DNA from: Flavobacteriales bacterium
GTDB lineage: Bacteria; Bacteroidota; Bacteroidia; Flavobacteriales_C; GCA-002722245
DNA: 51,129 bases
Assembly: GCA_023251075.1 (NCBI GenBank)
Contig: JAHEZM010000025.1
Span: 1 to 51,129, forward strand
Direction of reading: 5' to 3'
Shown: piece by piece, positions 45,162 to 50,091 of the stretch
Layout of the letters: the number at the start of each line of letters is the position of its first letter
Position numbering within the stretch: position 1 is the stretch's first letter
The notes under the pieces: model-generated
Seen by the model: only the letters and a program-made list of their open reading frames with translations
Told to the model about the DNA's origin: nothing
Database searches by the model: none
Translations under genes and position numbers: made by a program

Positions 45162-45722
45162 ATGGCAAATACTCTAATATATTTGGTTGATGATGATGAA
45201 TTATATCTGAAAACAGCTCATCATAATCTTGGCCAAAACAAAGGTTTTACTATTAAAACATTTATGTCGGGCGAAGAGGTGCTAAAAGCCCTTAGTAAAA
45301 AACCTGACATTATTATTCTTGATTATTTCTTGGATAGCGAGAAACCCAATGCTATGTCGGGAATTAAAGTACTTCAAGAAATCAAACAAATTGCTCCGGA
45401 TGTTGAAGTTTTGATGCTTTCCGGACAAGAAGATATAGATGTTGCGGTGAACTCTGTTAAATATGGCGCCGTCGATTATATAGTAAAAAACAAAAGTGCC
45501 TTTATTCGTGTTCAAAATGATATTAAGCGAATAATGAAAGGTAAAGAAAAAGATAAGGATAATGCCGGATTTAGGAAGTTCGTGATTACCTTGGTTGCTT
45601 TCTTAATTTTGTTAATTATCTTCTTGATTATTTATGCGATAGATCATACTGTATTCGGCTTATTCCCTGATCCGGGTGCTCCTATTAAGGATCCTAATGA
45701 ATTGCCGGGTCTTAGTCATTAA
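45162..45722 (+). CDS. membrane-anchored single receiver (REC-TM)
   Basis: This 186-residue protein has an N-terminal receiver domain with acidic triad VDDDE (~9-13), phospho-acceptor Asp54 (IIILDYFLD), and LMLSGQ and DYIVKN motifs. Residues ~130-150 are a single membrane span (VITLVAFLILLIIFLIIYAI), leaving a short outside tail (PDPGAPIKDPNELPGLSH). No output domain such as a DNA-binding or enzymatic part is present. A receiver anchored at the membrane could be a phosphate sink or dock a partner at the envelope. It is the last gene of the phosphorelay operon and is followed by a strong terminator. Confidence 0.87.
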   Translation: MANTLIYLVDDDELYLKTAHHNLGQNKGFTIKTFMSGEEVLKALSKKPDIIILDYFLDSEKPNAMSGIKVLQEIKQIAPDVEVLMLSGQEDIDVAVNSVKYGAVDYIVKNKSAFIRVQNDIKRIMKGKEKDKDNAGFRKFVITLVAFLILLIIFLIIYAIDHTVFGLFPDPGAPIKDPNELPGLSH

Positions 45723-45747
45723 TTATTTTAAATATTTTTTTTGTAGA

Positions 45748-45788
45748 AACATCCGCTCGTCAGCTGACGGGCGGATGTTATTTTTTTT
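45748..45788 (+). terminator. terminator of the phosphorelay operon
   Basis: AACATCCGCTCGTCAG and CTGACGGGCGGATGTT form a near-perfect palindrome of 16 pairs with one G-T pair, followed by a T-rich run. It separates the phosphorelay from ilvD. Confidence 0.9.
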
Positions 45789-45818
45789 AGCATCTTTGCA
45801 ACTCATAAAATTTCAACC

Positions 45819-47495
45819 ATGGCAAAAGAATTAAATGTACACAGTAAAACGATTACGCAAGACCCTACTCAGCCTGCTTCTCAGGCGATGTTGTATGGTG
45901 TAGGTTTAACAGATGATGATATGAAAAAAGCCCAGGTGGGTATTGTGAGTACGGGTTATGAAGGTAACACTTGTAATATGCACTTAAATGGTTTCGCTGT
46001 AGACATTAAAAAAAGCGTGGTGGATGCTAATTTAGTGGGTTTGATTTTTCATACGATTGGGGTGAGTGATGGTATTTCTAACGGAACTCAAGGAATGAAA
46101 TATTCTTTAGTGTCTCGTGATATTATTGCCGATTCTATTGAAACAGTTGTAAATGCTCAGTTTTATGATGCAGTTATTCCTGTAGTAGGTTGCGATAAAA
46201 ATATGCCGGGAGCAATGATTGCTTTGGGAAGATTAAATCGTCCGGGTATTTTGGTGTATGGTGGTTCAATTGCAGGCGGACACTATTGTGGTAAAACATT
46301 AAACATTATTTCTGCATTTGAGGCTTTGGGAGAGAAAAATCAAGGTACATTGAATGATGAAGATTATAAAGGAATCATTAAAAATTCTTGTCCGGGTGCC
46401 GGCGCTTGTGGTGGTATGTATACTGCAAACACTATGTCTTCTGCTATAGAAGCAATGGGAATGAGCTTACCTTATTCTTCTTCTGCCCCAGCATTAAGCA
46501 AAGAGAAACAAGCCGAACTACAAAATGTAGGTGCGGCCATGAGAAACTTAATGGAGAAAGACATTAAACCCCGTGATATTATGACTCGCAAAGCATTTGA
46601 AAATGCGATGCGTGTAATCGTTATTTTAGGTGGTTCTACCAATGCGGTATTGCACTTAATTGCAATGGCGAAAGCGGTAGATGTTCCTCTGAACCTGAAT
46701 GATTTCCAAAAGATGAGTGATGAAACACCATTTTTGGCCGATTTGAAACCATCGGGTAAATATTTAATGGAAGATTTACATGCGGTAGGTGGTGTTCCTG
46801 CGGTAATGAAAATGTTGTTGGAGAAAGGTTTATTGCATGGAGACTGTATGACTGTAACTGGTAAAACACTGGCCGAGAATTTAGCTATTGTTCCTTCTTT
46901 AAAAGTGGGTCAGGATTTAATTATGCCTTTCGATAAACCATTAAAAGCAACGGGTCATATCCGCATTCTTTATGGAAATTTAGCAACGATGGGTTCTGTA
47001 GCAAAAATCACTGGTAAAGAAGGTGAATTGTTTGAGGGTCCAGCTGTAGTGTTCGATGATGAATTTGCTGCTATCGATGGTATTTTGGGTGGTAAAGTAA
47101 AAAAAGGGAATGTAATTGTAATTAGATATGAAGGTCCTAAAGGCGGACCTGGAATGCCTGAGATGTTGAAGCCAACTTCTGCGGTAATGGGTGCCGGTTT
47201 AGGAAAAGATGTTGCGTTGATTACCGATGGTCGGTTCAGTGGTGGCTCTCATGGTTTCATGGTGGGACATATTTGTCCGGAAGCCCAAGAGGGCGGAACT
47301 ATCGGTTTGGTGAAAGACGGTGATATCATTCGTATTGATGCCATTAAAAATACAATAGATGTGAAGGTTTCTGATGCTGAGTTGGCAGAACGCCGCAAAT
47401 CATGGAAACCTAAAGTAGGACCAACAAGAGGTATACTATATAAGTATGCTAAATGCGTTAGTCCTGCATCTGAGGGATGTGTAACAGATAATTAG
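45819..47495 (+). CDS. ilvD: dihydroxy-acid dehydratase
   Basis: This 558-residue Fe-S enzyme removes water from dihydroxy-isovalerate and dihydroxy-methylvalerate, the last common step before transamination to valine and isoleucine. Family motifs are [32 protein letters not shown] and [12 protein letters not shown], and the cluster cysteines are Cys in GCDK and CPGAGACGG. Length is normal. A probable promoter with a CATCTTTG -7 box lies just before the start. The attenuator and ilvBN-ilvA follow on the same strand. Confidence 0.97.
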
Positions 47496-47628
47496 CATTT
47501 GAAAAAGGTATAAAAAAAGTCTTGAGATAATTGATTTTACTGGTTAATCTAATGTTGTATCTGTTTTAAATCAAATATAAAGATGAAAATTAGCTAAACT
47601 TTATTAGGTGGTCAATTGATTCTTTTAT

Positions 47629-47636
47629 TATACTTG
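47629..47636 (+). promoter_or_regulatory. possible -7 box of the ilvBNA leader
   Basis: TATACTTG differs from TAnnTTTG by one base and lies 17-24 bases before the leader-peptide ATG. No good -33 element is seen at the proper distance, so the box is tentative. Confidence 0.35.
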
Positions 47637-47652
47637 TACTCTCAAATCGAAA

Positions 47653-47706
47653 ATGAATACAAAAAATAACAATATTATCGTCGTGGTTGTCTCCTCTCTG
47701 GGGTGA
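47653..47706 (+). CDS. ilv leader peptide (Ile/Val-rich, 17 residues)
   Basis: An ATG-started ORF encodes MNTKNNNIIVVVVSSLG, ending in TGA. The run of two Ile and four Val codons is typical of attenuation leader peptides of branched-chain amino acid operons, where a ribosome stalls when Ile- or Val-tRNA is short. A terminator with an alternative pairing follows before ilvB. Confidence 0.85.
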   Translation: MNTKNNNIIVVVVSSLG

Positions 47707-47762
47707 GAAAGCACGTCTGTAAAAGAACAAGCCTTTCTCGAAATCGGGAAAGGCTTTTTTAA
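47705..47762 (+). terminator. ilv attenuator: terminator with competing antiterminator pairing
   Basis: AAGCCTTTCTCG (47729-47740) pairs with CGGGAAAGGCTT (47745-47756) in a twelve-pair stem with one G-T pair, followed by a T-tract to 47761. GAGAAAG at 47705-47711, at the stop of the leader peptide, is complementary to CTTTCTC (47733-47739) in the terminator 5' arm, so the two can pair instead and block termination. A ribosome stalled on the Ile/Val codons would leave GAGAAAG free, allowing read-through into ilvB. Confidence 0.8.
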
Positions 47763-47774
47763 TAAATAGGGGTT

Positions 47775-49514
47775 ATGGAAATTATCATGGAACAAGAGAA
47801 AACGAAAACAGAAAAAAAATCAGAAATGAAAAAAGTAATTGGAGCTGAAGCTGTTGTTCTTTCTTTATTAGCAGAAGGAATTGAAGTTGTTTACGGTTAT
47901 CCTGGCGGAGCAATCATGCCGGTATATGACGAGTTGTATAAATACCAAGATAAAATTCACCACGTCTTAGTGCGTCACGAACAAGGAGCTGTTCATGCTG
48001 CTGAAGGAGCTGCACGTGTAACCAACAAAACTGCAGTTTGTATCGCTACATCGGGTCCTGGTGCTACCAATTTAGTTACAGGTATTGCTGATGCTATGAT
48101 TGATTCAACACCTATAGTTTGTATAACCGGACAAGTTTCGAGTTTGCTTTTAGGTACCGATGCTTTTCAAGAAACAGATATTATTGGCATTACAGCGCCT
48201 ATTACCAAATGGTCGTTCCAGGTAACCAAAGCATCTGAAATCCCTAAAGCAATTGCTAAGGCTTTCTATATTGCCAGCACAGGAAGACCTGGCCCGGTAT
48301 TGATTGATATTACTAAAGATGCACAATTTGCTTCATTTGATTTTGAATACAAAAAGTGCACACATATTCGCTCTTATCAGCCTAAACCCGAGTTGAACAT
48401 GGATTCAATTAAGGAAGCTGCTGCGGCCATCAACGGGGCGAAGAAACCATATTTGTTGGTTGGACATGGCGTATTGTTGTCGCATGCACAAGAGATATTA
48501 AAGGCGGTAATTGAAAAAGCAGGAATTCCTGCGGCATCAACCTTATTAGGTCTTTCAGCATTGCCAACAGATCATCCCTTGTATGTTGGATTTTTGGGAA
48601 TGCATGGAAACTACGGTCCGAATGTAAAAACCAACGAATGCGACGTATTGATTGCTGTAGGTATGCGTTTCGACGATCGTGTAACAGGAAAGTTAGATGC
48701 TTACGCAAAACAAGCAAAGGTTATTCATATTGAAATGGATAAATGCGAGATCAGCAAAAATGTTCATGCGCATATTCCTGTTCATGCTGACGCGAGTGAA
48801 GCTTTGCATGCTTTACTTCCTTTGCTGGATAAAAAAGAGCATAAAGAGTGGTTACAAGAATTTAAAGATTGCGATAAAATTGAGCATGAAAAAGTGTTTA
48901 AATTGGACTTAACGCCAACTACTCCTGCTATTAAAATGGCTGAAGTTATTCGCAAATTAAGCGACTTAACTAAAGGACAAGCAGTATTGGTTACCGACGT
49001 TGGTCAGCATCAAATGATTGCTACCAGATATTACGAATTCAAATCTACCAATGCCAATGTTTCGTCTGGAGGATTAGGTACGATGGGCTTCGGTTTGCCT
49101 GCGGCTTTTGGTGCCAAGATGGCTCAGCCCGAAAGAGAAGTTGTAGCTATTATTGGTGATGGTGGTTTTCAAATGAACATTCAGGAATTGGGTACTATTT
49201 TTCAAACCAATGCAGCGGTTAAAATCATTATTTTGAATAATAATTTTTTAGGAATGGTTCGTCAGTGGCAAGAGTTGTTTTTCGATAGAAGATATGCTCA
49301 AACCGAATTGATCAATCCTAATTTCTGCATGATTGCCCAAGGTTATGGCATTGAAGCTAAAAAAATTGAACAACGTTCTGATTTGGAAACTGCTTTAAAA
49401 ACTATGTTGGCGCACAACGGTCCGTATTTATTAGAAGTAATGGTTGAACAAGAAGGTAACGTATTTCCTATGATACCTCAAGGAGCGGCAGTTAATGAAG
49501 TAAGATTAGAGTGA
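47775..49514 (+). CDS. ilvB: acetolactate synthase large subunit
   Basis: This 579-residue thiamine-diphosphate enzyme joins two pyruvates to acetolactate (or pyruvate and 2-oxobutyrate), the first common step to valine, leucine and isoleucine. It has the Glu-containing [41 protein letters not shown] and the ThDP motif IGDGGFQMN...NN. Start ATG 47775. ATG 47787 is possible. It is expressed behind the attenuator and followed 58 bases later by its small subunit. Confidence 0.97.
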
Positions 49515-49572: not shown

Positions 49573-50091
49573 ATGAGCACTGAAATAAAAAAATATACCA
49601 TTACAGTTTTCTCTGAAAATTACGCGGGGATACTTTATAGAATTACACAAATCTTCACCAGAAGAAAAATAAATATTGAGAGTTTAACTACTTCCGAATC
49701 GGAAAAAGAAGGAGTGCATCGCTTTACTATTGTAGTGATGACTACAGAGAAAACAGCACAAAACGTTACACTTCAAATTGAGAAATTGGTAGAAGTTTTA
49801 ATGGCTTCTTATTTTGCTGATGATGAAGTAGTGGCTCATGAAATTGCATTGTATAAAATGAAATCGGGACATGATTTCAATGCCATTGTACAAGCGCATA
49901 ATGCTAAGTTTTTGCATGTAGATCCTGAGTTTTGTGTAATTGAAAAAACCGGACATAAAGAAGATACACGTGCACTTTTTAATGCATTACAACCATTCGG
50001 AATATTAGAATTTGTGCGCTCGGGAAGAGTTGCTGTTTCTAAACCAATGAGAAATTTACATACTTACCTGCAAGAAATTGGAGAAGCATAA
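49573..50091 (+). CDS. ilvN: acetolactate synthase small subunit
   Basis: This 172-residue regulatory subunit has an N-terminal ACT domain (YTITVFSENYAGILYRITQIF, then KINIESLTTSESE) and a C-terminal ALS_ss_C part (from about residue 95). It binds the large subunit and gives feedback inhibition by valine. ilvA starts two bases after its stop, so no ilvC lies between them. Confidence 0.93.
   Translation: MSTEIKKYTITVFSENYAGILYRITQIFTRRKINIESLTTSESEKEGVHRFTIVVMTTEKTAQNVTLQIEKLVEVLMASYFADDEVVAHEIALYKMKSGHDFNAIVQAHNAKFLHVDPEFCVIEKTGHKEDTRALFNALQPFGILEFVRSGRVAVSKPMRNLHTYLQEIGEA

Follow-up and report, generated by a model that had tools for sequence, protein, structure and literature searches.

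A classical ribosome-mediated transcription attenuator, sensing the charging of isoleucine and valine tRNAs, very probably lies directly upstream of ilvB in the 51,129-nucleotide stretch of DNA analysed here (the window); from the sequence comparisons and folding described below, we put the probability of this reading at about 0.92. Ribosome-mediated attenuation is a textbook type of switch, and each of the anatomical elements that the earlier note had assigned to it was found, is conserved within the genus and forms part of an architecture that recurs in the phylum. All features in the window are given on the forward strand. The leader peptide ORF, MNTKNNNIIVVVVSSLG, occupies 17 codons at 47653-47706, from an ATG at 47653 to a TGA stop codon at 47704-47706, and bears out the Ile/Val leader proposed before ilvB. 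Its codons 8-13 (ATT ATC GTC GTG GTT GTC, 47674-47691) specify Ile Ile Val Val Val Val, a run cognate to the product of the operon. The ilvB gene itself, identified by its homologues as the large subunit of acetolactate synthase (47775-49514; 579 amino acids from the ATG at 47775, with a start at the ATG at 47787 also possible), begins 13 nt past the terminator U-tract and has homologues of more than 60% identity in many Bacteroidota. It is followed by genes that, from their sequence and position, appear to encode an ilvN-like acetolactate synthase small subunit (49573-50091; 172 amino acids) and an ilvA-like threonine dehydratase that runs off the contig end (50094-51128). The upstream neighbour is an ORF of 558 amino acids at 45819-47495, which we take, on its sequence and operon context, to be an ilvD-like dihydroxyacid dehydratase gene; reading of the sequence upstream of it revealed no leader attenuator. 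Between a response-regulator gene and ilvD, at 45720-45815, the sequence ACATCCGC...GCGGATGT forms a strong hairpin with a T-run; it is probably the terminator of the upstream operon, and no leader ORF was noticed at it.

An intrinsic terminator sits between the leader and ilvB, as had been claimed. It comprises 12 base pairs at 47729-47756, formed by strand 3 (AAGCCTTTCTCG, 47729-47740) and strand 4 (CGGGAAAGGCTT, 47745-47756) on either side of AAAT, and runs into a U-tract at 47755-47761. This 3:4 hairpin has a calculated energy of -17.5 kcal/mol and was the sole terminator-like site found by the terminator scan within 47000-48400; folding of 47700-47760 gave a z-score of -4.1, with 0 shuffles folding as well. 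The overlapping alternative pairing described in the earlier note is also present: GAGAAAG (47705-47711) can pair over its full length with CTTTCTC (47733-47739), part of the 5' arm of the terminator, such that antiterminator and terminator are mutually exclusive, and both motifs are kept in 5/5 congeneric genomes. The 5' arm of the antiterminator, strand 2 (UGAGAAAG, 47704-47711), overlaps the leader stop codon, and its 3' arm (CTTTCTCG, 47733-47740) lies within strand 3; this 2:3 pairing becomes the minimum-energy fold (-9.8 kcal/mol) once the upstream part of the RNA is removed. A further hairpin at 47675-47722 pairs the Val codons with the antiterminator region (-14.8 kcal/mol, z about -2.2) and would act as the 1:2 protector or pause hairpin, so that folding yields three alternative structures, 1:2, 2:3 and 3:4. 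Judged from the window by itself, the 2:3 pairing is modest (p 0.15 relative to shuffled sequence), with a z-score of -0.05 when a longer stretch is folded and -2.1 with the exact 2:3 domain; the case for an attenuator therefore rests on comparison.

The direction and size of the response to starvation, and the coupling of transcription to translation that it would involve, are what we infer from this arrangement. A ribosome would translate the leader just behind RNA polymerase. With both Ile-tRNA and Val-tRNA charged, it would reach the stop codon and cover strand 2, leaving strand 3 to pair with strand 4, and transcription would stop before ilvB. With either amino acid in short supply, the ribosome would stall at codons 8-13 and strand 2 would remain free to pair with strand 3; the terminator would not form, and ilvB-ilvN-ilvA would be transcribed. 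If no ribosome were present on the leader, the 1:2 hairpin would sequester strand 2, making termination the default.

Comparison of the source genome of the window (G000) with four other genomes of its genus (G001-G004) reveals that the switch is retained as its surroundings change. The leaders read MNFLNNNISVVVVSSLG in G001, MKISTKNIISVVVVVS in G002, MKTSTKNIISVVVVVS in G003 and MKRSIQNISVVVVVSLRR in G004 (the last on the same contig as survey locus L002); their sequences differ from that of the window, and the reading frame, the Val run, the antiterminator and the terminator are kept in 4/4, with every change in length amounting to whole codons. GAGAAAG, CTTTCTC and the terminator are present in all of them, and strand 2 is invariant in 5/5 congeneric genomes. 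In G002 and G003 the last pair of the terminator is A-U in place of G-C. The 1:2 hairpin, which is variable outside the genus, is found in all five genomes; its outer stem is CGUG/CACG in G000 and G001 and is rebuilt as AGCGUC/GACGCU in G002-G004, so that the stem stays and its sequence changes. Across the genus the 2:3 fold has z-scores of -2.1 to -4.7, and conservation of this pairing in four genomes despite changed surroundings makes it, at the level of sequence, convincing. The earlier note had made its reading depend on conservation in relatives, and leader and terminator are kept in all four congeners. The same comparison bears on the alternative that the terminator merely closes the ilvD transcript or works constitutively, with ilvB expressed from another promoter and the Ile/Val-rich ORF arising by chance in AT-rich DNA. 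This has in its favor the position of ilvD directly upstream in the window genome; in G003 and G004, however, a gene other than ilvD precedes the attenuator, and leader, strand 2 and terminator nonetheless stay together in G002-G004. The attenuator thus belongs to ilvB and not to the end of ilvD. Elsewhere in the family, two loci from another genus (L089 and L090) keep a terminator before ilvB with a weak or unrecognizable branched-chain leader, and a locus from the sister genus (L091) has a weaker leader, MRHLKVISVELVLRSLFGF; the switch in the sister genus may be decaying or changing.

The arrangement extends well beyond the genus. Our survey covered 98 ilvB loci, of which named genome records supplied 80 and other relatives the rest, and looked for an ATG-started ORF near a terminator with at least six Ile, Val or Leu residues in 8 codons. 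Such a leader accompanied 55 of the 69 terminator-like sites found upstream of ilvB; a score of at least 6 was reached at 8 of the 79 terminators used as controls, which lie downstream or on the opposite strand in these loci, and the mean best leader score was 2.3 in shuffled upstream sequence, figures to be read with the caution that the surveyed loci are related and pooled statistics overstate their independence. Representative leaders are MNKQILNIISIIVIVIMSRR in Aestuariivivens (L071), MMQISIIITSVVVVNVFSTSASGMV in Flavobacterium reichenbachii (L015), MKFSAIILVVVILIITSVSG in Thermoflexibacter (L064) and MKFNLHIVNIISIVIIHKE in a Saprospiraceae MAG (L042). Most leaders are found some 1.8-2.9 kb ahead of ilvB, level with ilvD or farther upstream and not directly before ilvB, and the same architecture precedes ilvD or ilvB in many Bacteroidota. 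Where 2.9 kb or more of upstream sequence was available (71 loci), an attenuator was detected in 45 and undetected in 26, all four Chitinophaga loci included, and the switch is thus not universal; a relaxed search of the loci lacking one suggested about three more (L055, L059 and L063). The control terminators confirm that AT-rich DNA produces some ORFs rich in branched-chain residues, as the chance explanation holds, but that explanation is at odds with the many genomes in which the attenuator precedes ilvD instead. Four loci (L039, L054, L072 and L078) carry two tandem leader-terminator units upstream of ilvB, at or above the ilvD position, with the second leader starting a short way past the first U-tract and frequently richer in Ile; these units possibly represent serial sensing. 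Three records titled as Thalassovita or Mariniblastus (L035, L040 and L068) encode an ilvB 63-65% identical to that of the window, and L035 additionally bears a branched-chain leader; the titles of these contigs may be wrong.

For tests of pairing we retained 55 attenuators, whose relatedness makes pooled figures look more independent than they are, consisting of 54 sites scoring at least 6 and one scoring 5, with one hit (a second leader match in L014, MWFLLLLEKLLNLK) dropped as chance. Pairing between the 5' arm of the terminator and a strand located at the leader stop is stronger than its own shuffle mean in 55/55; the strand 2-strand 3 duplex has a mean energy of -10.7 kcal/mol against -6.4 kcal/mol in shuffles (Wilcoxon test, 1e-10; n=55). 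In all 55, strand 2 begins between -18 and +10 nt relative to the first nucleotide of the stop codon, where 81% of shuffled regions would give a position at or before +10 nt; for the hit L060 the duplex method gave no sensible position for strand 2. If the ribosome is assumed to shield about 11 nt beyond its A-site codon, strand 2 would be partly masked in 55/55 once the stop codon is reached, and would stay free in 54/55 during a stall in the middle of the branched-chain run, which is the geometry of an attenuator. Fold z-scores below -1.5 against shuffles were obtained for the 2:3 domain in 39 of the 55 and for the 1:2 domain in 36. The last of these values, together with the position of strand 2 at the stop codon everywhere, would suit a variant in which the same leader acts mainly through masking of strand 2 by the ribosome, the 1:2 hairpin being unneeded, or in which reinitiation or Rho plays a part. 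This variant is compatible with attenuation by the leader, and we regard it as a real but rather unlikely possibility; the 1:2 hairpin persists in all five genomes of the genus despite sequence change, and an intrinsic terminator with its U-tract is present.

Other biosynthetic operons of the window genome carry leaders of the same type with different codons. A His leader, MNLTIHHHHHNNTCQ, lies about 156 nt before the hisG ATG (L112, contig G000:C34) and is accompanied by a GC-rich terminator-like hairpin, and Trp leaders are found before two different chorismate-binding (trpE-type) genes, MKKQFVNNSWWWFSTKVVNG (L115, G000:C18) and MILNTNTWRWQVSLS (L116, G000:C27), giving two Trp-type leader-terminator arrangements in one genome, each with a terminator-like hairpin downstream; the hairpins after the His and Trp leaders were read from the sequence and not scored. 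An automatic search identified His-rich leaders in 20/30 HisG loci of the class, the window genome included, and with the leader of L145 doubtful the share is about two thirds. No convincing leader was seen before pheA or leuA of the same genome, and we do not count an ORF before thrA (MKTLTTLHLHLSPTSLEKNK) as a Thr leader, since its Thr codons are merely scattered and it lacks a clear terminator. The match of the codon run to the pathway, whether Ile/Val, His or Trp, argues strongly that these leaders are read by ribosomes. Cognate His leaders before hisG are likewise hard to reconcile with a chance ORF beside an ilvD terminator, an explanation that we consider very improbable and, on the sequence comparisons, largely refuted. 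A sensor of branched-chain amino acids different from the ribosome (a riboswitch, a T-box or an RNA-binding protein, for example) could instead act on the leader region, and the 1:2 region does fold better than shuffles. No Rfam match was obtained in the whole window at gathering thresholds, whether to a T-box, a riboswitch or another cis-regulatory RNA; furthermore, genera differ in the primary sequence of the putative sensor but share the cognate codon runs, which change with the operon. We judge such a sensor extremely improbable. A search for phage DNA gave no match.

Ribosome-mediated attenuation would require that transcription begin upstream of the leader and that the leader be translated; the sequence features bearing on this are a putative promoter box and the conserved reading frame. 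A putative Bacteroidota -7 box, TATACTTG (consensus TAnnTTTG), is present at 47629-47636 and ends 16 nt before the leader ATG; no good -33 TTG was found at the usual spacing to this box. A TAn(1-4)TTG box precedes 40/55 attenuators, with a median distance to the ATG of 16 nt (range 5-38), and in the genus the distance is 9-16 nt, from which this loose motif predicts a 5' UTR of about 4-12 nt. None of the 55 leaders has GGAG, AGGA or GAGG at -18 to -4, as expected for a phylum whose members, according to a published study, lack Shine-Dalgarno sequences (PMC6847099). The predicted 5' UTR of the genus is short against the average of 33 nt that the same study gives for F. johnsoniae (PMC6847099).

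If this reading is correct, the switch would turn on branched-chain amino-acid synthesis when Ile or Val is scarce, through a type of control that recurs across the phylum and has hardly been studied there. We see a roughly even chance that ribosome-mediated attenuators (Ile/Val, His and Trp, with some ilv units in tandem) form a suite found throughout the Bacteroidota, with leaders that lack Shine-Dalgarno sequences and very short, partly near-leaderless 5' UTRs; such a suite would imply tight coupling of transcription and translation from the first nucleotides. To our knowledge, this coupling has not been demonstrated in the Bacteroidota. The leader would serve as a direct reporter of it, since it lacks a Shine-Dalgarno sequence and must acquire a ribosome by the time about a hundred nucleotides have been transcribed, and the switch renders coupling in this phylum testable by ordinary genetics. 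It also offers a simple route to annotating amino-acid regulation where, as in this phylum, few attenuators have been described.

The closest architectural counterparts are the ilvBN and ilvGMEDA operons of Escherichia coli (ilvL type), in which a Val/Ile-rich leader, an intrinsic terminator and an antiterminator control an acetolactate synthase operon. Cognate Val/Ile codons, a terminator, an alternative antiterminator and an acetolactate synthase operon are common to these systems and the window; by contrast, the leader in the window is the shorter one at 17 codons, lacks a Shine-Dalgarno sequence and follows a predicted 5' UTR of only about 10 nt, and its strand 2 overlaps the stop codon. 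The likeness considered here is one of architecture. The Corynebacterium ilvBNC attenuator (ilvB-II motif) is likewise described as using a uORF and alternative hairpins to control ilvB transcription; it belongs to a different phylum (PMC10272879, PMC11857589). Within the Bacteroidota, no experimental test of attenuation was found in the open-access literature. In B. thetaiotaomicron, long 5' UTRs contain short ORFs that have been likened to attenuation leaders (PMC7366714) and that share with the window the phylum and the short 5' UTR ORF, the example given there being a hypothetical protein and not an amino-acid operon. In Flavobacterium psychrophilum, attenuation by leader peptides has already been put forward as a control of amino-acid operons; the main text of that paper names hisG and pheA and does not mention ilv, and the mechanism is there proposed, not tested (PMC9723704). 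In light of that proposal, the remark of the earlier note that such attenuators are rarely described in Bacteroidota is fair; the mechanism class is known, and calling it new is unwarranted. What the F. psychrophilum elements, as described there, have in common with the element before ilvB is the phylum, the control of amino-acid biosynthesis operons and structured 5' regions with leader peptides (PMC9723704).
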